Positions 5,273-61,874 of a DNA stretch of 64,000 nucleotides are shown piece after piece; position 1 is the first letter of the stretch; every line of letters starts with the position of its first letter. Below the pieces are notes generated by a model, which saw only the letters and a list, made by a program, of their open reading frames with translations, had not been told where the DNA came from and ran no database searches. Origin of the DNA: Aphrocallistes beatrix (Eukaryota > Porifera > Hexactinellida > Sceptrulophora > Aphrocallistidae); the NCBI GenBank assembly GCA_963281255.1, contig OY725501.1, positions 635,882-699,881 of the forward strand, given 5' to 3'. Both the position numbers and the translations under genes were made by a program.

Positions 5273-5599
5273 TTATCTATCAATTACTTCGACCAGCAAT
5301 CCATAGTACACTTGTTTTACCTTAAAGTCCTCACTCCGCCCTTGTAATGAAATACAGATATCGATGTATAAACTATCCAGTGATTGATTAACAGGAATGA
5401 CAATTGTTACATTCCCATCATTGTGTAGGTAGAGAACTGCCATGCCTGCACCTGGGAGGTCTGGATTGGTAGGAATCACTCCAAACATTGAGCTACTCCC
5501 TCTAGGCTCCATTATCAGTCTTCTTCTCAGACGGTCCTGGTGCTTGAGCACGAGTTGGCGTTTATCTAGGACCGAATGTCCTTCTATGTGGAGTGGATA
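5273..5599 (-). CDS. unrecognised exon-like open frame
   Basis: A minus-strand frame stays open from about 5599 to a TAG near 5273. It has a basic start (KHQDRLRRRL) followed by a soluble, beta-rich looking stretch including GVIPTNPDLPGAGMAVLY and NDGNVTIVIPVNQSLDS. Codon use looks coding, but no family is recognised. It abuts the plus-strand coiled-coil relic starting at 5593, so the two may be inverted pieces of one former gene or two unrelated exons. No ATG at a sensible start; if real, it is an internal or terminal exon. Confidence 0.4.
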   Translation of the reverse strand, partial: YPLHIEGHSVLDKRQLVLKHQDRLRRRLIMEPRGSSSMFGVIPTNPDLPGAGMAVLYLHNDGNVTIVIPVNQSLDSLYIDICISLQGRSEDFKVKQVYYGLLVEVIDR

Positions 5600-6512
5600 G
5601 CCAGCTGATTATCAGGACAGTGACCATCAGAAGAGATGAACTTCTCCAGCAACTCAACGATCTGAAGCAGGACTACCTGAACAAGGAAGAAATGAGGAAG
5701 AAACAGGTTCAAGAGTTGGAGCAGATGATCGGACAGCTTGAAAAGATGAGTGTTCATCAAAATCCAAATTTGAAATTCCACGAAGATCATATCAACAGTA
5801 TGGGAGATGAATTGCAAAAGGCTGAACTAGGGATCGACCGGGAATCCCGGTTGAATCCCGGTTTTGCCGGGATTTGGCTATTTTACCGGGATCCCGGTTA
5901 TTGCCGGGATCGCCTAAATTTACCGGGATCTAGCCGGGAATTTAAAAACCTTTATATAGTGGAACTCAGAATGAATTAATATTATATTCATGTAATTTAT
6001 GGTTAAACGTAGTTATTATACACTATAGACATTAACATTAATCTATTTCAGAATTTTTGACACCCCGCTATTCCGAATTCCGACCATTCTTTTAGGACGA
6101 AACCCTACCTAAGGCTACCTTTAACCTCAGAAATACGGTCAATTCATTACATCAATCGTTCACTACTTGTTGAATCAATAGTTACGTGTTAAACCAAAAC
6201 ATTTTATTAACAATTGACAATATGTATTAATCCCGGCAAAAAAATTGACAATCCCGGCAAAATCCCGTCCCGGCAGAAAATCTTATCCCGGTCGATCACT
6301 AGGCTGAACAATCAATTCCCATCCCTGTCCCTCACTTCAGTTCAGATCTCCAATCTCTCCTTCAACAGCTGGCGAGGATAGGAACTGTTCAGGAAATGAG
6401 TAGTCTCTACTCTGACAAACTGGAACCTGTCAGGAGCCTCCACAAATTTCTTGAAAACTGGGCTCTTACAGCTAGTATGTCTGTAGCAGTAGTTAGTCAC
6501 GGTCACATCTAA
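5593..6512 (+). pseudogene. coiled-coil (TRIM-like) gene fragment split by a hAT MITE
   Basis: The frame entering at 5569-5593 encodes a long heptad-rich helix (DELLQQLNDLKQDYLNKEE... QVQELEQMIGQLEKM), of the kind seen after B-boxes in TRIM proteins. At 5828 a 474-bp MITE interrupts it. When the 8-bp target duplication is counted once, the same frame continues after 6309 for about 67 more codons (SSDLQSLLQQLARIGTVQE... SLHKFLENW) to a TAA at 6510-6512. The insertion is therefore in coding DNA. No RING, B-box or NHL part is joined to it. The TRIM assignment is a guess from the coiled coil alone. Confidence 0.6.
5828..6301. mobile_element. hAT MITE with perfect 8-bp target duplication
   Basis: Terminal inverted repeats TAGGGATCGACCGGGA / TCCCGGTCGATCACTA, many internal CCCGG units, and an exact 8-bp duplication GGCTGAAC at 5820-5827 and 6302-6309. 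This is the signature of hAT transposition. It lies inside the coiled-coil reading frame. Confidence 0.92.
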
Positions 6513-26619: not shown

Positions 26620-26642
26620 ATTTTCTAGATTTTTTCAGTGAA
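26620..26642 (+). promoter_or_regulatory. splice acceptor just before the NLR start codon
   Basis: A pyrimidine-rich run ending ATTTTTTCAG lies three bases before the ATG at 26643 (an alternative CTAG is 10 bases earlier). It implies a non-coding first exon upstream of or inside the adjacent repeat. Confidence 0.5.
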
Positions 26643-29600: not shown

Positions 29601-30011
29601 ATAGAATTACAGAGCTTAACTCCTCTACTAGACTCTCTAAATACCTGCACAGCTCTGTTAGAACTTAGACTATGGTACTCTGAGTTTACTGCTCCAATCC
29701 TAACTCCACACACGTTAACACTACCACTCTCCATAGTCGTACTGGATATTTCTTCTATCAAGTTAGAAGACTCAGGTCTGTTAGAGTTGTGTAACATCTT
29801 AGCTTATCATCCTGCTATGAGGAGATTGGTAGTATATGAGTGTAGCTTAACATCTGTATCCTGTGAATACCTCTGCTACCTCATCCCAACACTCAGACAC
29901 CTGAGAGAACTGTTTGTAGATGAAAAAGAACTAAGTCAACCTGAAGATGCACCATTAAACAAACTCAAACAAACTGCTACTCGCTATTCTGTAGAACTGA
30001 AATTGTTGTAA
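26643..30011 (+). CDS. NLR: death-fold-like, NACHT, LRR protein, 1122 aa
   Basis: Intronless, intact, ATG-started. Residues 1-~90 form a helical domain (RERLSAEDIVKLSNFL, ...KWSGFNSSKFL, ...IPWL) resembling a death-effector-type fold. A second helical block runs to ~215. The NACHT core has Walker A GNPGSGKT (286-293), Walker B GLLIIIDSVDEF (372-383) and a sensor LLVTSRP with Arg413. The HD2 hallmark FSHLTLQEFTAALYL starts at 596. From ~790 to the end are leucine-rich repeats, best seen in LEDSGLLELCNILAYHPAMR. All ATPase residues expected of a working STAND switch are present. In animals such proteins sense microbial or danger signals in the cytosol and oligomerise through the N-terminal domain. 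The gene is richer in GC than its flanks, and one or more non-coding 5' exons are likely. Family certain; ligand and partners unknown. Confidence 0.95.
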   Translation: MTSSSDVSSAINTLRERLSAEDIVKLSNFLMVPSGLCEGKDPIKFLRKISKWSGFNSSKFLTGLRAIQPTLVDSAKQIPWLSTRSETKEQNKTDMSRFVEIVRDGLTILNWTDILLSHDIDLEEGTDRSEIMRICFHREIISTNLSSFIGQVRAIKRDDIASQLVSYGELFAKMDSEEFVNEFLRTLTENPKVIEMWRNQLSEFTSGAFDKIEPILGSSQTLPLEEIYTPLTIVKYNPEIQKEQESGKTEIDLLRQMYEEGIKNQDFLEMVKESKSEENKAWILIGNPGSGKTWLCNRIALLYGHGYLFQYQFAISIPCRNQEWHDQEETRNTKGHKITSQSLQDWLLLGMPLGTDWAEKLAEHLVKTEGEGLLIIIDSVDEFTKNVPIDSTILSALLLRRALRNSTLLVTSRPAAWNQASTKLSGLQIDQYYQVLGFSPDDRDAYIAKRLDLRRQKLFQKMIDLHEEIALLCLVPVNASLFTALFLLSDDVTANTLTELYTFLFHYLIKRQLTRMRLTEYAKAEKLFELHKDVLQCLYSIGEVAYLGVSARELTSTAHIPLSIQGEKVQDSECLGLVQVHIKETTPGVKTEVWCFSHLTLQEFTAALYLYSIPWTELCLLTRYIVSTREVFNMYRMVLRFSCGLLCDDAASLINIVFRYHLVKPVPYNDMPLKYQLYYDRDSTLNSVSDWYEFTTQFASLSTLIAESHMTLLYKHTSQFLRDNLYFYFMETVPLNEWNNFVTSLSQVGRTIQVIYIDLECFTPEQLQTLLQQLSSCSVRYLALFYHQGMDSDKLESICDVITQSPPLNTKLSIEVNLDELTEENPLMNVINSTNQIISSMRLFLVELSENVLKRIFNRITSLQCLDFSPRYSTQERDTSLLLQRLSTATQLQAFNFERDSLPEELQRDITSATSKLTTLREISCINMELSYSILPQIQRLSQLTYLNINPGYDSEFLSQDSDNLLQLVDRNRDSLKGLKLDRLQQIELQSLTPLLDSLNTCTALLELRLWYSEFTAPILTPHTLTLPLSIVVLDISSIKLEDSGLLELCNILAYHPAMRRLVVYECSLTSVSCEYLCYLIPTLRHLRELFVDEKELSQPEDAPLNKLKQTATRYSVELKLL

Positions 30012-40299: not shown

Positions 40300-41354
40300 C
40301 TACATGCCGTCGAATAGTACGTCGAATACTACATGCCGTCGAATATTTTCCATCTCAATACTGTAGGACATAGGCCCACTTTTATGCTTGATTCTACCAC
40401 TCACCCATCTGGTTTTAGTCGCGGAAAAATCGCGTACCAATACTATCTGTCCTTCTGCTAGTTGTTTGCTAGGCTTAGTGTTCCTATCATGATATTGCTT
40501 CTGAGACTCCTGCTTGTTTGCTACTCGAGAAGCTGTATCAGGGAGTAGGCAGCTCATGTGTGTCCTCAGCCGTCTTCCCATCATCAACTCCGCGGGAGAG
40601 ATACCTGTCGTTGTGTGGGGCGTAGTTCGGTAGTGAAACAGAAATCTTGCCACTCGAGTCTGTAATGTGTCAGATGATTCTCTCCTCATTGCATCCTTGA
40701 AGGTCTGTACTGCCCTCTCTACTTGTCCATTAGAGGATGGGTGGTACGGCGGTGTTCTGATATGCCGTATACTGTTCCGACAAACAAATTCAGAGAATTC
40801 TTCCATTATCAGTACGATCACCTCTGGTAGCCCGTGAGTAGCAAACATCATCTTTAGGTTGTCAATGGTATTATTTGAAGTTGCCGAATTCACAATAGCG
40901 ACTTCCAACCATTTAGAGTGAGCATCCACTACCAAGAGAAACATTTGTCTAAGAATGGTCCAACGTAATCTACGTGTACCCGTACCCATGGTTGTTGCGG
41001 CCACTCCCAAGGATGCAGGTGATCTTTGATGGGCGAATGTCTCGAAAGCTGACATTGCTTGCATAGCTTTACTTTTTCCTCTAGCTGTCCATCGATTCCT
41101 GGCCACCACACATAACCTCTGGCTATGCTCTTCATCCTTGAAATGCCAGGATGACCCTGGTGAAGCATATCCATTACTAATTCTCTAACTTTAGTAGGAA
41201 TTACGATTCTAGTCCCGCGTAGCACGCACCCATCGTGTATACTTAATTCGTCTTTCTTCCTCCCGAAAGGAAGTAGGGAATTATCATCAAATATTCCCCA
41301 ACCCCTCTGTAGTGATAGGCGAACACGAGACAAAACTTGGTCGCTATCGGTCAT
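40300..41354 (-). pseudogene. Gypsy integrase (frameshifted)
   Basis: Two overlapping frames. The first (41354-40929) has the HHCC zinc-binding region (LHQGHPGISRMKS...CKQCQ) and the start of the core (VDYVGPF). The second (41109-40300) has the rest of the core, with HIRTPPYHPSSNGQVERAV carrying the catalytic Glu, and a C-terminal GPY/F-type module near GPMSYSIEM. The expected middle Asp (usually in 'SDNG') is not in frame; TDNG is legible only in another frame, so compensating indels lie there. Confidence 0.85.
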
Positions 41355-41452
41355 TCAAGGAGGACAACTCCATGTTACTCACAAGGAGAATTGTCTCTCC
41401 TGGTACTGGAGTATTAGCTGGGGATTCAGGAAGTGGTAACCGACTCAACCCG

Positions 41453-41806
41453 TCAGCATCTTGAAGCTGGCACGCGCTCATGTATTCTAATCGTAAGCTC
41501 CGAGCAATAACGCCCACCTCTGTAGCCTAGCTGAGGCCAATGATGGCACAGGTTTTCCGTGGCCCAAAATATATTGTATGGCTTATGATCTGAATTTATT
41601 GTAAAATGACGCCCATACAGGAATGTGTGGAACTTCTTGACCGCAAAAATGATCGCTAACCCCTCCTTGTCTAGTTGTGAATATCCCCTCTCGGGAGCGG
41701 ATAATGTACGAGAAGCGTAGTAGATAGGCTTACTAGAACCATCTTCCATGCGATGCGATAATACTGCCCCCAAACCATATGGTGAAGCGTCGCAACTCAC
41801 GAGCAA
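41453..41806 (-). pseudogene. Gypsy RNase H domain (frameshifted)
   Basis: [18 protein letters not shown] and [20 protein letters not shown] followed by INSDHKP give the conserved D, E and D. The last part slips out of frame after HKPYN. Confidence 0.85.
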
Positions 41807-41819
41807 TTCCTTATCAGGA

Positions 41820-42524
41820 TCAAAATGTTAACAATCCTTTTGCTCGCTCGAACGCGGGAGATTGGTCAATCCCCCACTTCCACCCGGTCTTCCTCTGTAG
41901 TAAGAGATATAGAGGAGCTAATGTAGAGGCGATGTTTGGCAAGAACTTACCGTAGTAGTTCACTAACCCGAGGAAAGATCTCAACTGACTGACATCCACC
42001 GGGCGTGGGGCAGCCTTTATCGCTTGAACCTTCTTTTCATTGGGGCTAAGTCCATCAGTTAAGGAAGATAGGAGATCATCGATCCGGGGGAGTGGATGTT
42101 TGTCGATCTTAGAAGCTTGATTTATTGTCACCTTATAGTCCCCACATAAACGGATTGTCCCATCGCTCTTGACCACTGGTACTACCGGCGCGGCCCAATC
42201 TGAAAACTGGACTGGTTCAATGACTCCTTGTTCTTGGAGTCGGGTCAATTCCTGTTCCACCTTCCCGCGCAGTGCGAATGGTAAAGGCCTGGCTCTAAAA
42301 TATCTCGGGGAAGTACCAGACTCTATGTAAATTCTGGCTTGAGTTCTCTTGACAAGTCCCAGTTCTTCTTTAAATACATTAGAATGATGGGCTAAGACGC
42401 ATTCTATCTCGTTTAGTTGTTGAACTTGATTCAGCTGGCAACAACTAAGAACGAGTCTTTCCATCCAATCTCTTCCCAAGAGGCTAGGCCCGTTGCCTTC
42501 TACTACTATCAGGCTAAGTCGCAT
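41820..42524 (-). pseudogene. Gypsy reverse transcriptase with catalytic core missing
   Basis: The 234-codon frame starts with the end of protease (GPSLLGRDWMERL), continues into RT (WAAPVVPVVKSDGTIRLCGD, then LPRIDDLLSSLTDG) and jumps at residue ~158 (near 42050) straight to LSPNEKKVQAIKAAP and the RT thumb/connection (LRSFLGLVNYYGKFLP). The stretch that should carry the YxDD active site, roughly 110 residues in related elements, is absent without loss of frame. Confidence 0.9.
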
Positions 42525-43644
42525 GTCGCCTTTCTAGTTTTACATCCACCTCGATTTCCCCACATATCTCAATGGGCTCACCAGTATAGGTCTTTAACCG
42601 CGAGGCTGTCTTCTTAAGCGTAGGGGCACTTCCTGGAATCCAAATCCGTTCAAAAGTCGCCTTACTTATGATAGATCTGGTCGCTCCAGTATCAATCTCC
42701 ATTTCTAGATCTACTCCACACACTCTTGCATGTATCCTTAAGGGAGCTCGAATCGAATCCCGAATATTGTATAGATTATATTCCGGTAATGGATCCTCAT
42801 TGATCTCTTCACTTTCACCACTAACAACGTGGATATCTCTCCGGTTATTGATTGAAGCCGAGTCTCGTCTCGGTTTGCTCCGACAAACTCTAGCTAAATG
42901 TCCTCGCTTTTGGCACCTGAAACAGGTCACTTCCTTAAAATGGCAGTCCTTTGATTGATGTCTGCCCCCGCACCTGGTGCATGTATCCCCCTGGGAATAA
43001 TGTTTAATGCGAACTCGATTAGAAGGGAAGGAATCTACCCGATCAATCTCAGGGACGTTGTCGGTCAGCGGTGGCTTCACTCCATCTCCCATCATGTGAA
43101 TGCCCTCCCTTTTCCTGGTTTGAAGGTCTTGAGCATTGCGCTCCGCGGATTCCATCGCTTGAGCGATATCGAAAGCCTTCTTGAATGCGAGATCAGGCTT
43201 AGATAACAGCCTACGCTGTATACGCCCGTCATCAATCCCACAGACCAACCGGTCCCGTAACATAACAGGGAGTGTGTCCCCAAAACCACAATGCTCCGAT
43301 AGTCGTCTCAACTCTGCCACGAAAGCAGCAACCGATTCGCCCCCCTTGCGTAAGCGAGAATGAAAAACAAACCTCTGAACGATTACTGACGGTTTTGGGT
43401 CGAGGTGATCCTTCACTAGTTGCACGATCTCATCGAAGGACTTTCCCGTCGGTAACTCGGGCGCCAGAAGATTCTTGATGAGCTGATACGTGCGTGGACC
43501 GCAGCAGCTTAGCAGGATGGCTTTGTGCTTCCCTTCCCCCTCAATATCATTAGCCGCAAAATATTGCTTTAGTCTTTCAGTGTACGACGGCCAATCCTCG
43601 ACGCCATGATCAAACTCACCAAAAACTCCTTGACGGGAAGCCAT
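42514..43644 (-). CDS. Gypsy gag-protease polyprotein, 376 aa
   Basis: ATG at 43644, just inside the 5' LTR and primer site. Residues ~1-200 are Gag (VQRFVFHSRLRKGGESVAAF is the typical capsid helix). Two CCHC zinc knuckles lie at ~223-255 (CTRCGGRHQSKDC and CFRCQKRGHLARVC). An aspartic protease follows with DTGA at ~319-322. The frame overlaps the pol frame by a few bases, consistent with ribosomal frameshifting or a mutation. Gag packages the RNA; this copy could still make it even though pol is dead. Confidence 0.9.
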   Translation of the reverse strand: MASRQGVFGEFDHGVEDWPSYTERLKQYFAANDIEGEGKHKAILLSCCGPRTYQLIKNLLAPELPTGKSFDEIVQLVKDHLDPKPSVIVQRFVFHSRLRKGGESVAAFVAELRRLSEHCGFGDTLPVMLRDRLVCGIDDGRIQRRLLSKPDLAFKKAFDIAQAMESAERNAQDLQTRKREGIHMMGDGVKPPLTDNVPEIDRVDSFPSNRVRIKHYSQGDTCTRCGGRHQSKDCHFKEVTCFRCQKRGHLARVCRSKPRRDSASINNRRDIHVVSGESEEINEDPLPEYNLYNIRDSIRAPLRIHARVCGVDLEMEIDTGATRSIISKATFERIWIPGSAPTLKKTASRLKTYTGEPIEICGEIEVDVKLERRHAT

Positions 43645-43661
43645 TGTTTATCTTCGTCGCC
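43645..43661 (-). other. primer binding site
   Basis: On the minus strand TGGCGACGAAGATAAAC follows the 5' LTR by one base. TGG at its start would pair with the CCA end of a tRNA. Which tRNA cannot be told here. Confidence 0.65.
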
Positions 43662-45655: not shown

Positions 45656-45975
45656 TAAAATGAAGATGCGCTAATCAGCTGCTACTCATACATTTATTTT
45701 GTCCAGAAGTGTTTTTTTCCAATTCCACACTCGAACACAGATCAGAAATATTTAAAATGTCAAATCTTGGTGCCACAGATAGTTTTATCAGTTTTGAGGT
45801 TTCAGAAACAATGAATCAATGCAATTAATAGTCTAAAGTGTAGCGGCATTGTCTTAACTATACAATGTTACAAGATCCTCATTCTAATCTCTATTTCAAC
45901 ACAGCACATTCGAACACCAGCAAAAGGGAATACAAGTATTATTTCAATAAATAAAACGCGTGTGTAGTAACTCAC

Positions 45976-46668
45976 CAGTAAGATTGCCACAGTAATAACA
46001 TTGAATGTTCAAATCCGAGCAAATATGATCATACCAGTAGTAATTGTGTATATTACTGGTTACACAATCGCGATCCAAGCGGTAATTAATCCAGTTTCTG
46101 TAGGAACTGTTGCTTCCATCACTCCACACATAAGTCCCTTCTGTTTCAATGTCATTCAGACCAATGTGACAAAAATCAGTTGGAAAAGGACCTCCAGCAA
46201 AACGCAATGTTACACCTTCAGCTCCTGAAGCGATGCTTGCCAGATCTCCTCCCCACGTCTGACAATTAGCTCTAGCATCGAGCCAAAGTATTAGTGGACT
46301 AGCAAAGTAGCTGAAGCACTTCCCATCACTCGTAATTAGATCACATCCACTAGTTGGAGCTAAGAATAGTGCAGAAAAATAATATTGTTGAAATACTACA
46401 TTAGACATGTGGAATGTATAAAAATCCGGTTTTCATCCAAGCGTTTGTGGCACAGCTACAGACAGTGAATCTAAATCAAAATAGTACTAATGCGCAGAAA
46501 TTTGCATATATTTCTAGATCTTAGTATTAAATACATTCGCTGGCATTGGTTAGTCATATGAAATTAATCGGAGTGATGTTTGGGTAAAGTCAGAACAAAT
46601 TATCACTTACCTTGAGCGAACGCTTTGAGAACCAAAGAAAATATTATCATAATCAGTATCTGATTCAT
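45976..46668 (-). CDS. C-type lectin gene, signal peptide + CTLD (two exons)
   Basis: Exon 1 (46611-46668): ATG, signal peptide MNQILIMIIFSLVLKAFAQ, donor AAG-GTAAGT in phase 1. Exon 2 (45976-46359): acceptor ATTCTTAG, then a C-type lectin domain with GCDLITSDGKCFSYF, WLDARANCQTWGGDLASI, IGLNDIETEGTYVWSDGS and CYYCG; it ends at a phase-1 donor (CTG-GTGAGT). Reading through that donor meets a stop after 15 codons, and AATAAA lies at 45693-45698 (minus), so a secreted form is possible. The EPN/QPD sugar-specificity tripeptide is not present and WND is WYD, so calcium-dependent sugar binding is doubtful. Exon 1 and the CTLD are paralogous to the first exons of the receptor at 48453-56818; no Ig or TM exons follow it. 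Confidence 0.8.
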
Positions 46669-48105: not shown

Positions 48106-48452
48106 TAAAACTGGTCAGGCTGTTATACAGTAGAACTCAGATAAGACGGACCACTCAGGGAAGAGGAAAAAAGTACATAATGTTTCTAACTAATCTCAAG
48201 ATAATATATTGTGCTATGTCAAGATTGCAATGAAAACATTGACACAGTTAAGTATCAGCTAGCTCGATTACAGTAAAACATAATAACAAAACATGACCCT
48301 ACACCTAAAACAACCTGAAGAAACCAGAAGTAATGAGAAAGTTGGGAAGTAGTGGATAGTATAATGAAACATCATCAGTGTCAGCCTTAAAACGACTTAC
48401 TATTGATAATTTGGTTATTAAAGGGTAAAACATTCCTAATTAAATCGCATAA
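48106..48452. other. 3' flank of the receptor gene
   Basis: No exon recognised. It holds an isolated TA-CAGTAGAACTCAGATAAGAC end that could be half of a pogo-like MITE. Confidence 0.35.
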
Positions 48453-48540
48453 TTAGATTTTACATTTTATTTGTGGTTTTTCGTCATCCTCAACTTCTAT
48501 TACTTCAGTATCACACCAAACAACATAGCCAACAGGAAAT
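48453..48540 (-). CDS. receptor exon 10: end of cytoplasmic tail
   Basis: Acceptor GGTTTTTTACAG, phase 2 as needed. Encodes KFPVGYVVWCDTEVIEVEDD... and ends at TAA (48453-48455). Acidic, no domain. Confidence 0.6.
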
Positions 48541-51500
48541 CTGTAAAAAACCCAGAGTTACAGTTGTACTACAACCTGACCCAATATGTAGCACTTGTAG
48601 AATAGAACATGTCTAGGAGTAAGAGCTGCCTTTAATAAATCATGTCTATCAACAATCATACAGTATATAGAATACAGAAGAATCAGAAATTGCTCTTAAA
48701 AACAGAATAAAAGTAAAAATATATAGTAAAAGAATCATACACAGACGGGTTCATACAATTCATTCAGAGATGATGAATCCATATCTTCTGAACATAAACA
48801 CACACATTAGTAACCTAGTTAATGAACCTATACAGTTATTCTACTAGTTAGAGCAAATGTTGTTGTAAAAAGTGCTCTCACTTGCAACACAAGAAACTTG
48901 CGTCTCTACTAAAGCTCTCTTTGGGCGCAGCTTTCATTTTCATGTCGTAAGTAGGATTAGGAATAATGGGTGCCTCCTTCATTTTCATGTCGTAAGTAGG
49001 ATTAGGAATAATGGGTGCCTCCTTCATTTTCAGATCGTACACAGGATTAATCAAGAGTGGATTGAAATCGGGTTTGTTGTTTTCAATAGTTGCATATACC
49101 AAATTATCAGGATTTGCAGAATTAACATATACTTGCATGGCCTGCTGGTTATTCTCATTCTTGAGTCTATCTCCTCGCTTCTTAGACATTTTACAGCAGC
49201 AAAATACGATGGAAGTGAAAATGACGAATACTGCGAAGAAGAGGATGTATACTAACGATACTACTCCCACTGTGAAGGCTATTTCAGGAGTAAACTGAAA
49301 GTTTGATGTAGAAATGGTTTCAGGAGATGGATCTTTAGGTATTGAGATTAGATGAAAAGTTTGAAGAGAAAATGTTTGTTTCAGTAAAAACATAATAGTC
49401 ATTTCTATTCTGACTCTATATTCCACATTTGATAGAAGTTTAGTGATGTTGTACTCTAAAGAACTTGTGATCCCAGCCAATACTTCTGCTCCTCCAGCAG
49501 TATTGTAGTACACTGAGAATGTCTCGTCGGAGTTTACTGTTTGATTATAGAGCAGAATCCAGCTGACGAGTATTGAAGTGGGACTGGATGTTTCTATCTT
49601 TATGCTGGTAATTCTTTGATCAAATATACCTAAAAAATAAACTATGTAAAATATTCTATTACATGAATATTCCAATCTCTCTTTTCCGTCTCCCCATCAT
49701 GATTTAATAGAGCACATTTTTGAAAATAATTGTATTTATTTTGTCTAAATTTGAGGAATCTGAGCATATTTCGAGACAATTAGATTCAACTACGTTCCCA
49801 CGTCTCATGAGTGTATTGCTAATATGTCATTCCTTTATCTATAAATTAAATCCTTGGAATCTGATTGGTTAATACAATTATATACCTTCTGGTTATGAGA
49901 TAGTTTCAACCTGGACTAAAGGTTCTACTCACCGAGATAATTATCTAAATCAAGAAATCCTAGAGTATACATCTGATCATCGATCTGACATGAATAAATG
50001 CCTGGATTGTCATTGGTTACTGATAGAGTGCTGATTCCTGTAATGACATCAACTGTAGTATTGAAAACTGTTTTATCTCCAGCTAGATCTACATAACTCC
50101 AAGGATTGCTTATCTCAGTGATGCAGTATAGAGTTGCGTCTTGAGATATGATTTGATTGTTTTGAAGTGCGATATATTCTGAATTTGATTTGCTCCCAAA
50201 TGGACTATTGACTAGAAACAAAGTTAGATCAGGGTATTACAGTAGGCTATGGTTAGATCTTAAAATGAGTTTATCAAAAATAGTTATTAAAGTAAATAAC
50301 CTTCTGAAATAATCTCAATCTGAATAGCTAGGGTTTCTTGTCCATCCCAATTGTCAAAATAGAACTTGTATAATCCTCCCTGAGTGACATAGAAAGTTGA
50401 GAAGGTAAGAGTGTTGGATGCTACAGAGCTGTTATCAGGTCTATGCCATCTCCCAGCTAGATTAGTACTCAGAACTACATTCTGTGTCAGAACAGTGATA
50501 GAAGCTGAGTTCATGTTAGGAGGTAGGAGAGAAAATGATTGGATAGATCCGTTGATGAGCGTTATTATAGGAGGACCTTAAGTTCAAAATACAGTGCATA
50601 TTAAATAGTTAGTCAAGATTGAGGAGAGATTTAACCAACCAATATGCTTCTTAGGAATGGATTATAAATAAAGATAATAATATTTTTGAAAATTTAACTT
50701 TTGGATTTTCGTACAGTTATTTTACATGAGATGTTCTAGTATGGTCGAGCAGCAAATTGAAGACTCCCGAACCAGATAATCGTGGAAATCAAGTGAACTG
50801 ATTTGACCAAACTTGATACATTCGACATTCTTTACTCAGATTGTGAACCTCCTGAGAACATATTAACATGGATTCGGTGGGTAGATAAATCTATAAAATT
50901 TACTTTACTTTTGACGGACACTATTTATATTATGTAAATTTGCAACTGATGTGGAATTTGGTGTATGGCATACAGCTTTAGTAATTCTATAGTTTGCATT
51001 TAACGAAGTATTATACTACTTATTGAAGGAGAATATGGAATAATCTACCTTGAATTGCTATTTCTATGTGTGAAATCAAGTTTCCAGTATCTGTATCAAT
51101 ACACTGCAACTCTCTTGACTGTTACCTAAACTGAGCAGCTCATTACTAATATTGAGTGGATTTAGGTATAGAATTGTTGAGTTGAATATTTTCCATCTGA
51201 AGCTCTGAAGTGAGTAAGATTCAATCTGGCAGAGAAGTTGGATATCTGTTCTGTCTATTTCCACTGTGTAAGTGTAGTTAGATGTAATCACTGGCACTAA
51301 AGAGAGATAAAAATGTTTTAATAAATATTTTTTAAGATTTAAGTATTTAATCATCGAGGATATATATGCTACGGTGCAAAATAGTTGATGTAATGTTTGA
51401 GACAAGTATTGATATAAGCAATAAAATATCATAAACAAAATGCAATACTTGTCTGAAAAATGTCTGTTTTTTGAGAATCAAGCATCTAACATCTTATATA

Positions 51501-54500
51501 TTAAAATGCTAGGATTTGTTTGTTTGTTTGTTTGTTTGTTCGAATTGATTGAAGAATTGGCAAGTCGTAGAGATACGAAAATTGGCATGTAGTTTTCAAA
51601 TGATGAATCTACGATTAAGTTCTAAGATCTAAGCGAAATTTTCACACCTCTGCAAAAAAGATGGAAAACAATTTTTCGCACCTTTTCTATACAAAATAAA
51701 TGACTACACTATTACAATAGAAATCATTGTACAAGTACGACACTACAATAAATAGATCGTCATTGTTATTAATACTTCAAAGCCACAACTTATGTTTGAT
51801 ATCTTAAATGTATTATACTAGTGTATGGCTATAAAAAGATTATCTGCATATTTTCACACCTTTATATACATATTTTCACACCATTTGATTAATTTTGAAA
51901 ATAATGCTAGAGACTAGCTTCCAACGGTTGACATGGGGTTTTCAGGGGTGTAGATTTCGAATATTTAATTTTCAGATGTATATGATAAATTATTTGTTTA
52001 CTTTTGTTTACATTAGATACATAAAGTAAACAAATCTCAAAAATATGCTAGAAACTAGCTTCCAACGGTTGACATGGGGTTTTTAGGGGTGTAGATTTCG
52101 AATATCATATTTTCGAGTAAATTTGAAGATCAATTTGTTTACCTTAGATACATAAAGTAAACAAATTACAAAAATGGGCTAGAATCTAGCTTCCAACGGT
52201 TGACATGGGGTTTGTAGTGCTGTAGATTTTGAATATTATATTTTCGGATCCATATGAGAAATTATTTGTCGACCTTTGTTTACAATATTTATTTAAAGGA
52301 AAAAAAATCCAAAATATGTTTGATTGAGTGACTCCAGGCGCCCGCAGGGCGACTCTGCGGACACGCAGTGTCCGCAAGCTGCGCAGCGCAAGCAAGCGAA
52401 GCGTGCTTGTGTATTATTATATTGACAGGGATGTTAAACTAATTATTATTTAATTAATGATATCTCTAGGGGATTACGGGAATATCTAAATTTGCATTAT
52501 GTCTCAGGATATCTTAGAATTCAGGAAGGAGGCTGAGGCTCCAGGCTCGGGTCTTGTTTCTATGAATATTTTAATGATACAGTACCTGTTAACAGTGAAG
52601 GATCTTGTAACCAGATACCATATATCCTACTAACGCCATTATCTTGAGTGACTTCACACGAGTAGTAGCCTGGATTCGTCAGAACTGGAACAGTCAGAAC
52701 ACCAACTCCTGTAGTGACATTAGTTGTACTACTAAGAACTGATCTGCTCCCATCTTGATCTACATAGCTCCAATACACTTGTGGAGTGTTCCTGTTCTCT
52801 GTGATGCAATAGAGAGTAGCGTCTTGATATATGCTTGCATTGTTTGCAGTAATGAATGATTCATTTATTTTTATTTGAAACGGAATCACTAGAATAAAAT
52901 AGACATCAAATAATTATCACTTTTATAATCACTTTTTAGTACAGCTCCTTAGGGAGATGCCCTTATGGCATGGACGGAGTATCTCATCCGTCCGTATGTA
53001 TGTATGTATGTCCGTACGCGCGCTACTGCGAAATCTAACAGTCCGAATTTTACCAAATTTCGCATGTAGGATCTCTTTATGGTAAGTTTTTTTCACAAAA
53101 TCTCATCACTTCTCGTTTTTATGAGTATATATTCATATTTTAACACCTCCCATTGCAAAACTTTGCTTAACCCTAATTGGACTTGGAATGTTGAAGTGAA
53201 AGTGAAAGTTAATTGAAAGTGAACTGAAAGTGAAAATGAAAGTGGGAATTTTCTATTTATACCTTTGACCCCAAGTCCAAGTAGGGTTAAAGATATAAGT
53301 AAGATCTCAACGACTAATGTAAGGTATTTCACCACGTAGGATCCGATTTTCGCATTTTGAAAGTAATAACATGAATATTTTACAAGTTTTTAACATATGT
53401 ACGATATTTTCACACCTTTTAAAAAAAGTTTTATTTTGAGCTAGAAGCCAGTTCTCAACGGTTAATATAGGATATTTTTATATGTAGATTTCAATTTTCG
53501 TACTTAGAAAGTGGTAATCTAAGTATTTTATGAGTTCCTAACATAAGTACATATTTTCACACCCTTGGAAAAAATCTTATTTTGAGCTAGAAGCGAGTTC
53601 TCAACGGCAAATATAGGATATTTGAATATGTAGATTCTAATTTTCGTACTTAGAAAGTGGTAATCTAATATTTTATGAGTTCCTAACATATGTATAAACA
53701 CATATTTTCACATCTTTTGGTAAAAAACTTATTTTGAGCTAAAAGCGAGTTCTCAACGGCTAATATAGGATATTTTTATATGTAGATTCCAATTTTTGTA
53801 CTTAGAAAGTGGTAATCTCAGTATTTTATGAGTTCCTAACATATGTATATATACATATTTTCACACCTTTGGAAAAAATCTTATTTTGAGCTAAAAGGGA
53901 GCTCTCAACGACTAATATAGGATAGTTTAATAAGTAGATTCCAAATTTCACACTTAGAATTCCCTAAAATGAGTATTTCCCGATGTATTCCAATATTTAC
54001 ATTTCATATTCCTTCGAGTCACTTCCTGGAGCTGCACTATCGGTCTGTCGACCGACATTTTTATCTATCAGTATTATTATTAATCATAAAATAAAAATAT
54101 ATATTATTTGGTTTCAAGAGCCATCTATATTATTGATATATTTATACAATATGCATTTTAAAATTTACCTTTAGTACTGCAGAAATAATTTATCGAATTA
54201 CAACAACAGTCATCCTCCCATTTAGTGCTGTCCCAATATTTCTCTGCACAATCTTGATTACCAAGATAATTATCAGGCCTATTAGCATCCCAATTAGTAT
54301 AACTACTGCTAGTACCATCAGCCCACTTCCAATCCCCTTCTGTTTCGATATCATTAAACCCAATCCAACTCGCAGCTGGAGAAACACCTGCTATTGAATC
54401 TAACAATACATCTTCGTTGCTATTGGTGATAGTAGCTAGGTCACCTCCCCAAACTGCACATCTACCACGAGCTGTTTCCCAATTAGACGGACTGTTCGTG

Positions 54501-56818
54501 AAATAACTGAAACATACTCCTCTCTCTGTAATCAGATCACATCCACTTCTAGGCACTACTATATCTAAAGGGAATTTTTATGACAATATGAGTTGTGCTA
54601 ATAACATAGTGAGCAACAAACTCAACACATCAATCCATTTATGTAATTAACTATTATTGCCTTCAATGATTACCATTCTTATACATAAACATTTCCACAA
54701 ATCAAAACAATATTATATAGCTAAATATTATAGATATACTAGTATTTGTAAATTTTGAAAAGAGCTAGATATAGTCTCATCTTCTTTGCAAAAAGTGCTG
54801 ATCTTTTGATGTTAAAATATGAATGAGAAAAATTATATCTGATAACATCATCTAATTATTGTAAGATACTGATCGCTAATTCTTACTTGAAATCTCTAAT
54901 AAGTTTAGAACCAGTATTAAATATATACAGTATATGATTTTTAGAGAAACTCAAGATGGGAATGGGTTCATTAGAAGTCAATAAATTGTAAATACAGTAT
55001 ATGTAGTACCTGTTAATAGTGATGGATCCAGTAACAAGATTCCAAATAGCTTACTGACTCCTCCTTGTTGAGTGACTTCACACGAGTAGTAGCCTGGATT
55101 ATCAGTGGTTACAGTCAGAACACTAACTCCTGTAGCGACATTAGTTGTACTACTAAGAACTGATCTGCTCCCATCTAGATCTATATAACTCCAATACACT
55201 TGTGGAGTGTTCCTGTTCTCTGTGATGCAATAGAGAGTAGCGTCTTGATAGATGATTGCATTGTTTGCAGCAATGAATGATTCATTTATTTTTATTTGAA
55301 ACGGAATCACTAGAATAAATTAGATATCAAACAATTCTCACTTTTATAACCACTTTTTAACTATCAAGATTATTATTAATTGTAAAATAAAAATATATAT
55401 TATTTGGGTTCAAGAGCCATCTATATTATTGATATATTTATACAATATGCATTTTAAAATTTACCTTTAGTACTGCAGAAATAATTTATCGAATTACAAC
55501 AACAGTCATCCTCCCATTTAGTGCTGTCCCAATATTTCTCTGCACAATCTTGATTACCAAGATAATTATCAGGCCTATTAGCATCCCAATTAGTATAACT
55601 ACTGCTAGTACCATCAGCCCACTTCCAATCCCCTTCTGTTTCGATATCATTAAACCCAATCCAACTCGCAGCTGGAGAAACACCTGCTATTGAATCTAAC
55701 AATACATCTTCGTTGCTATTGGTGATAGTAGCTAGGTCACCTCCCCAAACTGCACATCTACCACGAGCTGTTTCCCAATTAGATGGACTGTTCGTGAAAT
55801 AACTGAAACATACTCCTCTCTCTGTAATCAGATCACATCCACTTCTAGGCACTATTACATCTAAAAGGATTATTTTAAATAAGTTTTGTTCAAAGTTTAC
55901 AGACCTAGGTTTCACTCAATTCAGATCTTTCAATTCGATACAATTCGCTTGAAATTTAAGATCTTTCAAATCGTCTATTTCATTCGACGGCAACAATGCA
56001 GATCAATCAACTCAATCATTTTTTCTTAACCAAAAATGATTTGATTCAACCTTGCCTGTAATGATGACGTTGAGTTTTATATTGATTGTTAGCAATGTGA
56101 GTTGCGTGGTGGAACGGTATTGCTACACTGGGACACCCTGTATCATAGGCGCCAAGTCTGGGGAAGCGGCCCTCCCAGGTATGGACCCTGGGGGCGTGGT
56201 ACTGGGCAGCGGAACAGTAGAGGAAGCTGTGGTATGGACTCCACACAAACTTGCAGGCTACAATTAAACCCCAAAAATATGTTAATTGAGTCTAAATATA
56301 TATCCCAATTACATTTTTTCTTTCACTATTGTTCGAGATTTTCTTTTCCCTAGGTAACAACAATAGCTGTATATCGATATTTAAGCATCTAAGATTTAAA
56401 AAATGTTCTGGGAGGCAAGCCCCATTACAACCGCTCGCTCTTTGACCCCTAGGTTTTATTCTAATTTCCAATACTTGGCGCCTATGCCCTGTATGATACA
56501 CGAATTGTATTTTTTAATTTCAATGGGTAGTTGGCTAAGTGAGCATCCCCCACTATTTTTTCTAGGATTACACCCCGATAGACAAATTATTACGCCAAGT
56601 GAGTATAATCTAGCATAGTGAGACAAATTATTTGAGCAATAATTGAGCTAAGCTATCCCATCGCGGCGAATCTTTGGGATGTCTGGATGGCGACTAATCA
56701 TGTGGACTACATTACGTAGACTTTAACTTTCACTGAATACAATAAAATATTTACCTTGAGCAAAAATCGTAGCAACTGCAAAAAGTGGTATCACTAATAC
56801 ACTCAGCATTACATTCAT
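48453..56818 (-). CDS. lectin/Ig transmembrane receptor with ITIM-like and NPxY tail, ten exons
   Basis: The exons I assign, in order on the minus strand, are 56755-56818, 55465-55860, 55010-55309, 54169-54564, 52586-52888, 51049-51296, 50301-50576, 49933-50211, 48882-49629 and 48453-48540. They spell signal peptide, CTLD, Ig, CTLD, Ig, Ig, Ig-like, Ig, FN3-TM-tail and tail end. Every intron in the extracellular part is phase 1; the last is phase 2. The coding total is 3098 bp: removing the two-base excess in the sixth exon leaves exactly 1032 codons including stop. The ectodomain suggests recognition of glycans or protein ligands at the cell surface; the tail has LVYATI, fitting the ITIM pattern, and three NPxYD motifs that could bind PTB or SH2 domains once phosphorylated. 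It is unlike any single vertebrate receptor I can name. Signalling role is inference. Confidence 0.8.
48735..48787 (-). other. candidate alternative tail exon
   Basis: Behind an acceptor TTTATGTTCAG one frame reads DMDSSSLNELYEPVCV and stops. It looks like a tail, but its phase does not fit the strong donor at 48882 (it would fit only a weak upstream donor), so it is not in the main model. Confidence 0.3.
48882..49629 (-). CDS. receptor exon 9: FN3, transmembrane helix, signalling tail
   Basis: A fibronectin III domain (IKIETSSPTSILVSW, TFSVYYNTAGG, LEYNITKLLSNVEYRVRI), a short stalk, helix AFTVGVVSLVYILFFAVFVI, cysteines CCCK and basic KKRGDR. The tail has LVYATI and then NPVYDLK and NPTYDMK twice, the last two within a 45-bp tandem repeat (unit NPTYDMKMKEAPIIP). 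It ends at a strong donor GCAA-GTGAGA in phase 2. Confidence 0.88.
49933..50211 (-). CDS. receptor exon 8: Ig domain
   Basis: QDATLYCITEISNPWSYVD and NPGIYSCQIDD give the two Ig cysteines and the Trp. Acceptor TTTGTTTCTAG, donor CTCG-GTGAGT, phase 1 on both sides. Close relative of the Ig exons 3 and 5. Confidence 0.85.
50301..50576 (-). CDS. receptor exon 7: Ig-like domain lacking both cysteines
   Basis: Phase-1 exon with ITVLTQNVVLSTN, then GRWHRPDN, then GGLYKFYFDNW and LAIQIEIISEG. The pattern is Ig-like, with Trp in place, but the first Cys is Leu and the YxC position is YxF, so no canonical disulphide can form. Confidence 0.65.
51049..51296 (-). CDS. receptor exon 6: Ig domain with a two-base frameshift
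   Basis: Acceptor TCTCTCTTTAG, donor CAAG-GTAGAT. The first frame gives TDIQLLCQIESYSLQSFRW. After AGTCAAGAGAGTT the Ig ending (LQCIDTDTGNLISHIEI) continues in another frame. The exon is 248 bp where a phase-1 exon should be a multiple of three; one GA of the GAGA run is extra. Confidence 0.7.
51490..52415 (+). mobile_element. complete Helentron-like repeat with three core units
   Basis: Head TCTTATATATTAAAATGCTAGG, (GTTT)n, CGAATTGATTGAAGAATTGG; core units starting near 51903, 52048 and 52182 (GCTAGA..CTAGCTTCCAACGGTTGACATGG); GC-rich hairpin tail ending GCGTGCTTGTGTA. The plan, microsatellite head, ~140-bp core repeats and 3' hairpin, matches pearl/HINE elements. It fills the intron between exons 5 and 6. 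Confidence 0.8.
52586..52888 (-). CDS. receptor exon 5: Ig domain
   Basis: QDATLYCITENRNTPQVYW and NPGYYSCEVTQDNGV, phase 1 on both sides (TTCTAG acceptor, ACAG-GTACTG donor). Nearly identical to exon 3, with a three-base length difference. Confidence 0.9.
52950..54060 (+). mobile_element. Helentron-like repeat with four ~150-bp core units
   Basis: Head with GGCATGGACGGAGTATCTCA, (GTAT)n and TTTCGCATGTAGGATC; a (GAAAGT)n-like stretch at 53195-53250; core units at about 53435, 53583, 53736 and 53888, each TTATTTTGAGCTA.AAG...TCTCAACGG. The tail is degraded (GTCGACCGACATTT). It lies in the intron between exons 4 and 5. Confidence 0.75.
54169..54564 (-). CDS. receptor exon 4: second C-type lectin domain
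   Basis: SGCDLITERGVCFSYF, ETARGRCAVWGGDLATI, WIGFNDIETEGDWKWADGT, NRPDN, QDCAEKYW, WEDDCC and FC. The cysteines expected of a CTLD are present; RPD stands where EPN/QPD usually is, and WED where WND is, so calcium binding is possible but altered. Same 396-bp length and almost the same sequence as exon 2. Confidence 0.93.
55010..55309 (-). CDS. receptor exon 3: Ig domain
   Basis: QDATLYCITENRNTPQVYW and NPGYYSCEVTQQGGV; acceptor TTATTCTAG, donor ACAG-GTACTA, phase 1 on both sides. Confidence 0.92.
55465..55860 (-). CDS. receptor exon 2: first C-type lectin domain
   Basis: Joins exon 1 in phase 1 (Q, then DVIVPRSGCDLITERG). Domain content as in exon 4. Donor AAAG-GTAAAT. Confidence 0.93.
56144..56486. 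mobile_element. hAT MITE with perfect 8-bp target duplication
   Basis: CATAGGCGCCAAGTCTGGG and ATACTTGGCGCCTATG ends, exact octamer CCCTGTAT at 56136-56143 and 56487-56494. In intron 1 of the receptor gene. Confidence 0.92.
56755..56818 (-). CDS. receptor exon 1: signal peptide
   Basis: ATG at 56818, MNVMLSVLVIPLFAVATIFAQ, donor CAAG-GTAAAT in phase 1. A hydrophobic core followed by AQ is a standard cleavable signal. Same layout as exon 1 of the lectin gene at 46611-46668. Confidence 0.85.
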
Positions 56819-57985: not shown

Positions 57986-60900
57986 TCATGCTGAATCCAC
58001 CTTAATTACTGGCTGAAAATGATTCCAACGTAACCTTAAATATATTCTTTTGTCTGTTAACTCATGAACGTCCTGTTTGTTATTAAAGCCATACCCTGAG
58101 AATTTGTTCCACCTGTGGCTACAATCTGTATGAATGAAAATGTCAGTTTTCAGAATTTGGGCTGCGAGGAAAATTTCTAAAGTAGTTCCCCATGACCCAA
58201 CGCTTTCCATTCTACTCTTAGATATAAAATCATCTATTGAAAGGCAGCGATGCTTCGGAAGTAATTCATAGTGGGAAGTACAGTAGTTAGTACATGTCCT
58301 CGGTAGGCTCCCCTCATATTTTCCAGTAGCAGCTCTCTGATTTCTCTATGGAATCGGGCAGTTCCTGTGATCACATGACAATGAACTGAATAGACAATTT
58401 CTGTCAAGTGAAATTCTTTTGATGGTACTAGCTGGTGAAGGTCTATATTCTTAACCTTAGACTGATTTTCAAATATAATCCCTGATATAAATGTTAATTT
58501 GAACATTCTGCATTTGCTTTTTTGCCATTTAGTATCTATTGGTGTAAATTCTCCATGTGGATGGACAGTTATTGTGATCTTATTCATAAGTAAAGAATCA
58601 CTGCTCTCTTCGCTTGAAAATTGATTGCCAAATATAATCTTATCTGGAGATGATGTTGTAGCTTTATTAATATAGACACCCTTTTCAAAAGTTTTTTGTT
58701 TATTTTGTAATTTATTTGTTGTATTTTCTTTTTTTGCACGTTTGATAGTTTTTCTTTTAGAATCATCAACTTCACTTTTTTTCGGGGTCTTACAAGTATA
58801 TGGACTAAAATAACTTCTCTTATTGTTATTTCGTCTTTTCCACACTTCTTCCATTAGGCAATCTTTACTATTTGTGCAACTTTTCTGCTTAAAAACCTTT
58901 GAACTTATCGGGAGAAATGCAAATTCAAATGCTTTCTGTCTAGCGAATATCCCTTCACGTAGTTTTCTGATGAAATCTGCTGGTCTTAACTTCACTTCAT
59001 TAGCTAATAAGTTTTTTTTCACGATTCTCATCCAGTTTTCCACCACATGTATAGCTTTTGAACATCTATTACCTTGCTGACATGATGGTAATAATCGTGC
59101 TAGAAAATTGCCTGTCCATAGGGGACAAATGGGCATAAAATGAGTTGTTAGGAAGTCTGCCCATTTGGGGTCATAAAAGAAATTGTTGTCTTCTAATTGA
59201 ACAGAATCTGCGTATTTATTTTCTAATTCAGAAATAAAACTCGACATCTATTTAAGGAATTGGTGAAGTATTTTCCAAAAGGAGACTTATTCTTGTAAGT
59301 GAAGCTGTCTCCCAAGTCATTGGGGAGTTCCTCGTCAAAATCTTCGATAAAATCAACATTAAGATCAATTTGCTCTTTCTCGCAACTAATGATAGTTTGA
59401 AGCTTTGTGATATAAACTTCGACTTCTAGATATATTTTCCTAGTTGAACAAGAAATAATTAAGGCAACAAAAATTTGATTTATTTCTTCGAATGATTCGC
59501 AATCAATAATTCGAGTCATTACGAAAAGAATTCTCGTTTTGGTTTCCTTAGGTATTTTCATTATGCGATCAAGTTTGAAGCTGAATCGGCGCATAATATG
59601 TGCAGAGCATAAATGTATTATTGTTCTAGAATAAATCATTGGGAAGTTATTGGTTGCATTCATTTTCCAACAAGTAGTAAGGTACTCCTCAAGACTTATT
59701 TGGTTAAAACTTCGACATGTGCTGTGTAGCATGGCCCAACTAAAGTCTATTTCTATGTGAGCAGGATTGAATTGTTTATTGAGTATTTTATTTGTATCAT
59801 ATAACCACTTGCTCAAGAAATGAGATATCTCCACATTCAAGAAATGAGATATCTCCACATATGGTCGCTGATTAGCAGTTCTGCAAGTGGAATGGGACTA
59901 ATTTTAGCCTCTGGATGTTTGATGGTGATTGCATAGTATAGAAACGTCTTCTGTTCTTTATCGAGTTTACGAACCACAGAACCGGTCGCATCTAAATGTA
60001 GGATAATATTGTCCCAATTGAAATGTTTTAAAAGAAGCATTTGATCCTCACTATACATGTGAACAACAACAGGCTGTCTTGATATGCTTTGAATATAACC
60101 GTTAATTTTGTTTCCTTTAATTGAGACATCATAAGTATGTTTTGTACTCACGATATCAAGCCACATATCAGAACTAAAACGATCTTTGGCTAAACCTTCC
60201 GCTTTTATCTTTCGAACAACAGCCTGTGTCTGTAAATGATTGAAATTCACACATTTTGCAACTGAAACACTCTGCAAATTAGTAAATTGTTCATAATGGT
60301 AATTTACAGGAGAAGAACTTGATATTTTTTGTCTTGCTTGTTCTCTTAACTCTCCAGAGAGGTGACGAGAAAAAGATGTTTTTTGGTCGTAGTGTTGGCT
60401 AGAAATTGAACCCTTGGCCAATAAGTTCACTTTTACATCTATTTCATCATTCGGTTCTTTGTCAATCCAAAATCTAAAAGACATACAATCTTGAAATTTA
60501 CAATTTCCTTCAGCGATCAAAAAGAGACATTGATAAGTTTCAAATTCTCGGTTGATCTGGTGATAATTGATTTTAATTACACATAGGGGATACAAGTTGG
60601 CAAGTTTCTGGTTAAGCACATTAATCCATTCTAAATACAATTTCTTATTTTTATTTTGGGGTTTTATATTTCTCCATTCATTATTACTAAGCGAAAATTC
60701 CTTAAGTTCAAGTCTAGGCTGGATGTCCACTCTTTGCTGTCGCATAAATTGAAGCTCTGCTTGCATTCTTCCGGAGGAAGTATGTTCTTCAATATGATGA
60801 CCACATGTATTATTAGGATTTATAAGTGTAGATGGTGATAGAGTAGTGGAAATAGTATCATCTGGATCATCGTCCATTGATTCCAAAGAAGATAATGATG

Positions 60901-61344
60901 ATAACTGTGGATCTAATAGTTTATTATTGGTTTGCTCGCTACCTTGTTCGGAAATTCGATAGAAACCTTCAGAATTTCGAATCTCACAATTTAGAGATTT
61001 GTCTGCAAACATAGAATTGTTCATTAAATCATTATTCAGTTTAGAATCGGAAGGAGATACGGAAATCTTTTTTTTCTGATTTAATTTATCAAGACAAATT
61101 GTTTTATATCGTTTTTGAATACTAAAGCGATTCTTATGCCATATCTTCCAAATTTTTCCTCTTTGCATTTCTCTATTTCTTTGGAATATCAAAACTGATA
61201 ATTTCCCCCATATAGATTTAGAACCACGCCAATTGTTTACATTTAAACTTTCGTTGATTTCAGAGCATGTTTCTCGTAATTTGAGAAGCTCACGAATTAT
61301 TTTATCTGGGAGTGAGTTGGGCATGATTGATACTACAGCTTTAT
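57986..61344 (-). pseudogene. transposase with C-terminal OTU protease domain (frameshifted)
   Basis: Four minus-strand frames in a row (to 59837, 59858-59223, 59247-58234, 58210-57986). Candidate catalytic parts: ILHLDATGSVVRK (first Asp); IEIDFSWAMLHSTCRSF (second Asp); CSAHIMRRF, a C-x2-H as in Mutator/KDZ-type transposases; CSKAIHVVENWMRIVKKN (likely Glu). A Lys/Arg-rich stretch follows. The end is an OTU cysteine protease: VITGTARFHREIRELLLENM, then SWGTTLEIFLAAQILKTDIF, then WNHFQPV with the catalytic His. The catalytic Cys motif is legible as DRNCLFS near 58425 but out of frame. At least five indels; a 24-bp tandem duplication lies at the first junction (~59814-59860). Superfamily undecided. 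Confidence 0.65.
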
Positions 61345-61874
61345 CTAGAAAATGTAGTAAAATCCAAATAGGTTTGGTAGCAGACTGTTTACAAACATAA
61401 AACAATATACTAAACGATAACCTTAGTTGAAAGTAGATACTAAGTATATAGTACATTTACTTAGAAATTGATAACACCAAAAAGTATTTGTGTAAAAATC
61501 ACAAATTTTATTTAAGCCATCACATTAAACATTAATATGGCAGACCTATGAAAAATAAGTTATCAGTCGATCGACAATAAGTATATGTGAGACAAGGTTC
61601 CTTTTAAAAAGGGAGCACACTAAATGATAATGTAATGCTCTGGAGTGAATATTTCAATTCTAAAGGATAACGATTAAGAGAAAAATATGCTAGAAAACTT
61701 GACTAATTGATTTTAATTAGAAATACTATACTACGTAATAAATTAAATCCAAGGGACCAATATTCCAATTTAGAAATACAGGTATTCCGTATAATATATG
61801 AAAAGTAACCTTAGTCAAAGAGGATAGCTATAGCTTCCTTTATGCCACCGCCCTTGATTATAATTTCTTCTTAC

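Follow-up and report, generated by a model that had tools for sequence, protein, structure and literature searches.

A family of C-type lectin/immunoglobulin receptor genes with ITIM-type and NPxY tail motifs in the glass sponge Aphrocallistes beatrix

Exon structure and domains of the receptor gene

We analyzed a stretch of 64,000 nucleotides from the glass sponge Aphrocallistes beatrix (assembly GCA_963281255.1, contig OY725501.1, positions 635,882 to 699,881; the whole stretch is called the window, and coordinates given without a contig are window positions), which carries on its minus strand, from 56818 to 48881, a receptor gene of nine exons bounded by AG/GT splice borders. The encoded domains are, in order, a signal peptide, a C-type lectin-like domain (CTLD), an immunoglobulin (Ig) domain, a second CTLD, two Ig domains, an Ig-like domain without cysteines, a further Ig domain and a terminal unit of fibronectin type III (FN3) domain, transmembrane (TM) helix and cytoplasmic tail. 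Below, C numbers denote contigs of the same assembly and L numbers individual loci or exon copies. The features of the gene, all on the minus strand, are as follows.

56755..56818, minus: exon 1, start codon and signal peptide, 64 nt (hydrophobic N-terminus, GT donor)
55465..55860, minus: exon 2, CTLD 1, with RPD at the sugar-motif position by motif alignment (Pfam Lectin_C 2.5e-17)
55010..55309, minus: exon 3, Ig (Pfam Ig_2 3.8e-5, under gathering score)
54169..54564, minus: exon 4, CTLD 2, identical to exon 2 at 393 of 396 nt (Pfam Lectin_C 2.4e-17)
52586..52888, minus: exon 5, Ig, a copy of exon 3 (Pfam Ig_3 2.4e-5, under gathering score)
51049..51296, minus: exon 6, Ig with a frame-shifting 2-nt insertion, 248 nt (Pfam Ig_3 0.028, weak; paralog alignment)
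50301..50576, minus: exon 7, Ig-like, without cysteines (AlphaFold2 all-strand model; no Pfam match)
49933..50211, minus: exon 8, Ig (Pfam Ig_2 0.023, weak; 54% identity to exon 3 over 81 columns)
48881..49629, minus: exon 9, FN3, TM helix, tail with LVYATI and three NPxY, stop; 1-nt insertion near the end
48922..49056, minus: 45-nt tandem repeat in the tail, bearing NPxY sites
48400..48880, minus: 3' flank kept in paralogs, containing a proposed tenth exon (unsupported)

Both CTLDs are certain, as Lectin_C scored 64 bits on exons 2 and 4 against a curated cut-off of 22.6. The Ig profile matches of exons 3, 5, 6 and 8 all lay under the Pfam gathering scores, and so did the fn3 match of exon 9 (9.7e-5) under its cut-off. 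Exon 7 had no Pfam match, and its best hit in a PDB profile comparison was at 0.089 (KIT Ig); its single-sequence AlphaFold2 model was all-beta (pLDDT 66.5), and a Foldseek search with this model returned nothing at E <= 0.001 (best E 0.072; top rows including Ig and PKD-type sandwiches). The predicted protein has one hydrophobic segment at the N-terminus and one later, and a Pfam search of exon 9 found no protein tyrosine phosphatase (PTP) domain.

A sequence-only reading of this DNA had described a chain of ten exons, with all extracellular introns in phase 1, encoding two CTLDs, five Ig or Ig-like domains, FN3 and one TM helix, with LVYATI and three NPxY in the tail. The two CTLDs and both kinds of tail motif are indeed present, and the single hydrophobic segment beyond the N-terminal one agrees with one TM helix. 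In the Ig series, four exons match Ig profiles below threshold and exon 7 has no Pfam match; FN3 is likewise matched, below threshold. The lengths of exons 2, 3, 4, 5, 7 and 8 are divisible by three and keep the chain in phase 1, and the regular phasing is broken by exon 6. The splice borders support nine exons rather than ten. At the proposed tenth exon (48539-48453), the window has the acceptor TTTACAG, the aligned AG is absent in L044, L045 and L046 (two of which carry an AG 2 nt downstream of the aligned acceptor position), and all three have TGA in the exon's frame where the window has TGG. A stretch near 48790-48745 (DMDSSSLNELYEPV) is a possible candidate for a different terminal exon.

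A large receptor family, much of it in arrays

The window gene belongs to a large family of type I lectin/Ig receptors, a good part of which lies in arrays. The genome contains at least 150 CTLD matches (a lower bound, 150 of 241 candidates having been scored) and 144 matches to the Ig domain of exon 3. Of the CTLD matches, 24/150 fall in C15:65-277 kb, 21/150 in C15:3.87-3.99 Mb and 24/150 in C6:0.76-1.37 Mb. A paralog at C15:3975296-3979219 has the order CTLD-Ig-CTLD-Ig-Ig-Ig-Ig-FN3/TM/tail, identical to that of the window gene, which indicates that the exon chain is not a chance assembly but a unit; another, at C15:3870004, is preceded by a copy of exon 1 (64% identical). L044 contains three successive exon 6-7-8 triplets. 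In 20 kb of the C6 array (L050, L051) no receptor-like TM exon was seen. The sugar-binding motif varies within the family: among 40 aligned CTLD rows, EPN was found in 8, QPD in 7, APN in 4 and RPD in 3, the remaining 18 having rarer forms, gaps or fragments.

Within the window gene, the near identity of exons 2 and 4 sits in a block of 522 nt that is 97.7% identical. Exons 3 and 5, compared in blocks of 50 columns, share 49, 48, 47 and 47 and then 35 and 38 identical nt, a mosaic pointing to gene conversion or to partial duplication on several occasions. Elsewhere in the genome, L018 and L019 (C4:2.193 and 2.213 Mb) form a pair of matches with equal scores, as do the CTLDs at C4:2.178-2.183 and 2.199-2.204 Mb, both at a spacing of approx. 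19-21 kb; these pairs reflect either a recent duplication or a second haplotype left unmerged in the assembly.

Tyrosine motifs in the tails of paralogs

Motifs of the immunoreceptor tyrosine-based inhibitory type (ITIM-type), defined as [SILV]xYxx[ILV] in the tail after the TM helix, and NPxY motifs were counted in 12 distinct terminal exons (window, L010, L011, L012, L013, L014, L015, L017, L018, L020, L021 and L028), to which 28 genome matches to exon 9 were reduced by exclusion of extra pieces of counted exons, of L019 (match values equal to those of L018), of three matches in phosphatase open reading frames (ORFs) and of fragments (C15:3941232, 3920992, 3931400, 3908072 and C4:1218249). 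ITIM-type motifs occurred in 8/12 tails as compared to 1.49 expected when each tail was shuffled, and NPxY in 8/12 as compared to 0.23, in a test on rows that are related by descent and hence are not independent samples. The window tail alone does not exceed chance (at least one ITIM in 14% and at least one NPxY in 6% of its shuffles), and its second and third NPxY copies derive from the 45-nt tandem repeat. The recurrence of both motifs across the paralog tails is beyond chance.

YA(T/S)I with a fitting residue at -2 was present in five rows (window, L011, L012, L017 and L020); L028 has PTYATI, which falls outside the strict motif. Motif losses could be traced in four tails, i.e., a change of the Tyr to V in L018, a shortened site in L010, a stop ahead of the NPxY region in L012 and the absence of any tyrosine in L021. 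No immunoreceptor tyrosine-based activation motif (ITAM) was found in the tails read.

Relatives with tyrosine phosphatase domains

Two relatives with similar lectin/Ig modules end in tyrosine phosphatase domains; the three exon 9 matches set aside above fall in long ORFs that also match tyrosine phosphatase. L056 (C15:152.8-159.0 kb) contains CTLD exons, then Ig-type pieces and exon 6/7-like pieces twice, and then an ORF of 854 aa in which a TM segment is accompanied by a pair of PTP domains, the first with HCSAGVGR and the second, degenerate, with HSASGIKQ. Pfam matched the tested CTLD (1.6e-13) and the two PTP stretches (5.7e-110); it matched none of the four Ig-type pieces submitted to it and gave no fn3 match. 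The two exon 7-like pieces show 34% and 31% identity to exon 7. An FN3 profile built on the ITIM class scored 48.5 bits on the L056 ORF as compared to at most 8.5 in 200 shuffles, a difference to which general FN3 kinship may contribute.

L059 (C15:775.66-780.23 kb) lies at a distance of approx. 83 kb from the window gene. It encodes a CTLD and a TM segment, a stretch rich in tyrosine that includes SNYMEI, and a single, degenerate PTP domain in which HCEDGIAKTG is found; its Ig-type pieces were identified by reading only, and the FN3 profile of the ITIM class found no kinship in it (at most 2.4 bits, within the shuffle range). The architecture, which had been taken as unfamiliar from elsewhere, thus belongs to a large family that includes a phosphatase-bearing sister class.

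In C15:65-277 kb, at least 23 ORFs have PTP matches, 12 of them having two (among the matches listed), and CTLDs lie in the same array. Among the matches listed, none for PTP lies in C15:3.87-3.99 Mb, C6:0.76-1.37 Mb, C4:1.21-1.30 Mb or C4:2.15-2.21 Mb. A SHP2-like gene at C8:160251-163182 has two SH2 exons ahead of PTP exons that contain HCSAGIGR; its first SH2 exon matches chains of PTPN11 at 4.8e-73. Kinase-linked activating partners were also considered, and none of 142 kinase matches (E <= 1e-20 among the candidates scored) fell in these five arrays (i.e., C15:65-277 kb and the four without listed PTP matches). Another dense array of tyrosine phosphatase ORFs was seen at C2:51-87 kb.

Frame-breaking insertions and the fate of the window copy

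The gene had been read as intact, and it carries two frame-shifting insertions. The 2-nt insertion in exon 6 has no counterpart in the paralogs L031, L055 and L049 (90-94% identical); as the exon is 248 nt long and frame-shifted, the full chain is not one frame. The 1-nt insertion close to the end of the tail is missing from L044, L045 and L046, and replaces the C-terminus common to paralogs: in L010 (in L044) and L011 (in L045) the frame runs on to VE(T/A)QVS.VASES.(F/Y)YN. If exon 6 is left out, a frame of 921 aa is open up to the stop.

Ratios of nonsynonymous to synonymous substitution (dN/dS) were computed for the window exons against their closest copies, excluding exon copies with stops or shorter than 85% of full length. 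They were 0.62-0.71 for the CTLD exons (four closest copies), 0.64-0.68 for exon 3 (three closest), 0.29-0.48 for exon 7 (five closest), 0.20-0.43 for exon 8 (three closest) and 0.34-0.35 for FN3 (compared to L010 and L012), i.e., the CTLD exons evolve faster than exon 8 or FN3. Values above 1 were found in the 35-codon TM stretch (1.18 compared to L010, 1.09 compared to L012) and in the tail compared to L012 (1.18). Given ratios under 1 for FN3 and for the ectodomain exons tested, any loss of function would be recent.

The window copy may be a decaying copy or allele, or its expressed form may skip exon 6 and end in a changed C-terminus, with the tyrosine motifs retained; an assembly error at one or both insertion sites is possible. 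That it is a functionless pseudogene, with only the intact paralogs relevant, is a serious possibility that we place somewhat short of even, and it would be compatible with the reading of the family preferred below. Two insertions, each without counterpart in the three paralogs aligned at that site, and the remote position of the gene from the array of its closest relatives (C15:3.87-3.99 Mb) speak for it; the 921-aa frame that opens once exon 6 is omitted, the dN/dS values below 1 and the possibility that the insertions are assembly errors or, for exon 6, are avoided by frame-keeping skipping speak against it.

Proposed function of the family

As a family, these genes may encode recognition receptors that damp signaling through phosphatases, either recruited to the tail or built in, an explanation to which we give an even chance. 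The CTLDs would recognize glycans, either microbial ones or those on other sponge tissue, with specificities that probably differ among paralogs according to the residues at the sugar motif (EPN, QPD, APN or RPD). Binding would cluster the receptors, a Src-type kinase would phosphorylate YATI, and a SHP2-like enzyme would dock at the phosphorylated site and damp tyrosine kinase signaling; the NPxY sites may serve in uptake or in the recruitment of phosphotyrosine-binding (PTB) adaptors. In the phosphatase-bearing sisters, the built-in domain would fill the equivalent role, and phosphatase action would thus be the output common to the family. Of the sequence-only reading, the surface receptor of an early-branching animal is supported, with its lectin, Ig and FN3 modules, its single TM pass and its ITIM-type and NPxY motifs; its inhibitory signaling keeps the rank of a proposal.

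Several observations weigh against phosphatase-mediated damping. Both window CTLDs carry RPD and WED, i.e., no canonical EPN/QPD with WND, and since CTLD dN/dS is nowhere above 1, diversifying selection is unproven. Four of the 12 tails have no strict ITIM-type motif and four no NPxY; three of the eight positive tails (L013, L014 and L015) have the ITIM-type motif at a site other than YATI. YATI also fits the endocytic YxxPhi signal. To these are added the shared descent of the tails in the shuffle test and the two insertions that break the window copy.

The main rival explanation, which we consider possible and on the unlikely side, is an endocytic or phagocytic lectin receptor whose CTLDs would capture glycans or bacteria and whose NPxY and YATI would be signals for clathrin or PTB adaptors, with no inhibition involved. 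NPxY and YxxPhi are both uptake signals, NPxY exceeds chance further than ITIM does at the same count of tails, and EPN- and QPD-type sugar motifs are present in the family. However, YxxPhi has no requirement at -2, and a residue that fits an ITIM at this position is present in 8/12 tails; kinship with phosphatase-bearing receptors also speaks against this rival. A cell-adhesion receptor, in which an Ig/FN3 stalk with CTLDs would join syncytial tissue or matrix, the tail would dock talin- or Dab-type PTB proteins and the ITIM-like site would be incidental, appears quite improbable: adhesion proteins often combine Ig and FN3 modules with an NPxY tail, and LAR-type Ig/FN3 receptor phosphatases function in adhesion, but expansion in arrays and turnover of the sugar motif resemble recognition more than structural adhesion.

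Returning to damping through phosphatases, a more far-reaching version is that glass sponges possess a diversified set of lectin/Ig receptors in which one ectodomain kit was combined with tandem PTP domains or, after loss of the PTPs from the same terminal exon, with an ITIM that recruits a SHP2-like enzyme, so that inhibitory immune-type receptors for self/non-self recognition in a syncytial animal would derive from receptor phosphatases. We regard this version as speculative and rather doubtful.

Relation to described receptor systems

In vertebrates, inhibitory receptors of the Ig and C-type lectin classes, compared here by description, likewise have an ITIM-type motif after one TM segment and a SHP2-type phosphatase in the same genome; unlike these, the window gene combines CTLD, Ig and FN3 in one chain and has NPxY beside the ITIM. 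LAR and CD45 receptor phosphatases resemble the sister genes in having Ig-type modules, a TM segment and tandem PTP domains with the second degenerate, and differ in that the sister ectodomains contain CTLDs and the window gene has no PTP domain.

According to the accessible text of a review on Botryllus, the allorecognition systems of animals as distant as cnidarians and mammals converge on ITIM/ITAM signaling; fester co-receptors of Botryllus bear an ITIM, and Hydractinia Alr is also cited (PMC12065747). Compared by description, these systems and the sponge family share clustered multigene Ig-type receptors with ITIM or related tyrosine motifs, which in Botryllus and Hydractinia are tied to allorecognition (PMC12065747). 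The fester co-receptors consist of Ig and sushi domains, with no CTLD or phosphatase domain described in the accessible text (PMC12065747), whereas the ectodomain of the window family is led by a CTLD.

Among sponges, the transcriptome of the demosponge Halichondria panicea has 157 CTLD genes, a scale similar to that of the genome studied here, and the accessible text names no CTLD-PTP or CTLD-ITIM architecture (PMC8242945). The Oopsacas minuta genome paper (PMC10280926) has no words starting with lectin, allorecognition or tyrosine phosphatase. A literature search found no sponge CTLD-Ig-ITIM or CTLD-PTP receptor, with poor coverage of subscription journals, and a search combining receptor-type tyrosine phosphatase, C-type lectin and Porifera found nothing. 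We found no description of the family in the accessible literature, and the coupling of one ectodomain kit to both ITIM tails and phosphatase domains is its interesting part. A sponge family with ITIM logic would, if true, extend the convergence of allorecognition-type systems on ITIM/ITAM signaling to Porifera, and its phosphatase-bearing sisters would allow a test of whether ITIM receptors arose from receptor phosphatases. Candidate recognition loci of glass sponges are C15:65-277 kb, C15:3.87-3.99 Mb, C6:0.76-1.37 Mb and the C4 arrays.

Mitochondrial code and other features of the window

The sequence-only reading had placed this DNA in an early-animal-type genome, and the mitochondrial code agrees. 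COX1 lies on the 17,996-bp contig C28, in a stretch with 70.8% A+T. In this gene, TGA stood at Trp in 12 of 14 aligned places, and TGG did not occur; AGA, at 16 aligned places, faced S 6, A 4, G 3, N 2, K 1 and R 0 times. ATA occurred 42 times as compared to 14 for ATT, aligned with Ile (18), Val (8), Leu (6), Met (2) and others (8). According to the accessible text on Aphrocallistes mitochondrial DNA, AGR encodes Ser in each of the three glass sponges known at that time but does not do so in demosponges, TGG is hardly used, ATA is preferred and A+T is 70.7% (PMC2267718). The code of this one gene (COX1) points to a glass sponge; as some bilaterians share the change of AGR, this is an inference at class level. 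A demosponge origin, to which the NLR-type ORF described below had seemed to point, was set aside in view of this code.

Near the receptor gene, a single ORF of 1123 aa (26637-30005, plus strand) matches NACHT (4.2e-20) and has leucine-rich repeats matching ribonuclease inhibitor/NLRP chains; by these matches it is classed as an NLR-type gene. A solitary CTLD exon (45947-46432, minus strand; Lectin_C 8e-11) resembles the C6 subfamily; a search with the exon set found no adjoining Ig or FN3 partner exon, and the exon may therefore be a relic. Several long ORFs at 40303-43647 (minus strand), where the window is richest in G+C, resemble by eye a retrotransposon polyprotein, and those at 57992-61456 (minus strand) include one with a sub-threshold OTU match (4.6e-4) and two without a Pfam match. 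An exon-sized proline racemase match (1.7e-10) lies at 5279-5608 (minus strand). Introns of the receptor gene contain tandem repeats with a unit of approx. 150 nt at 51891-52314 and 53291-54004.

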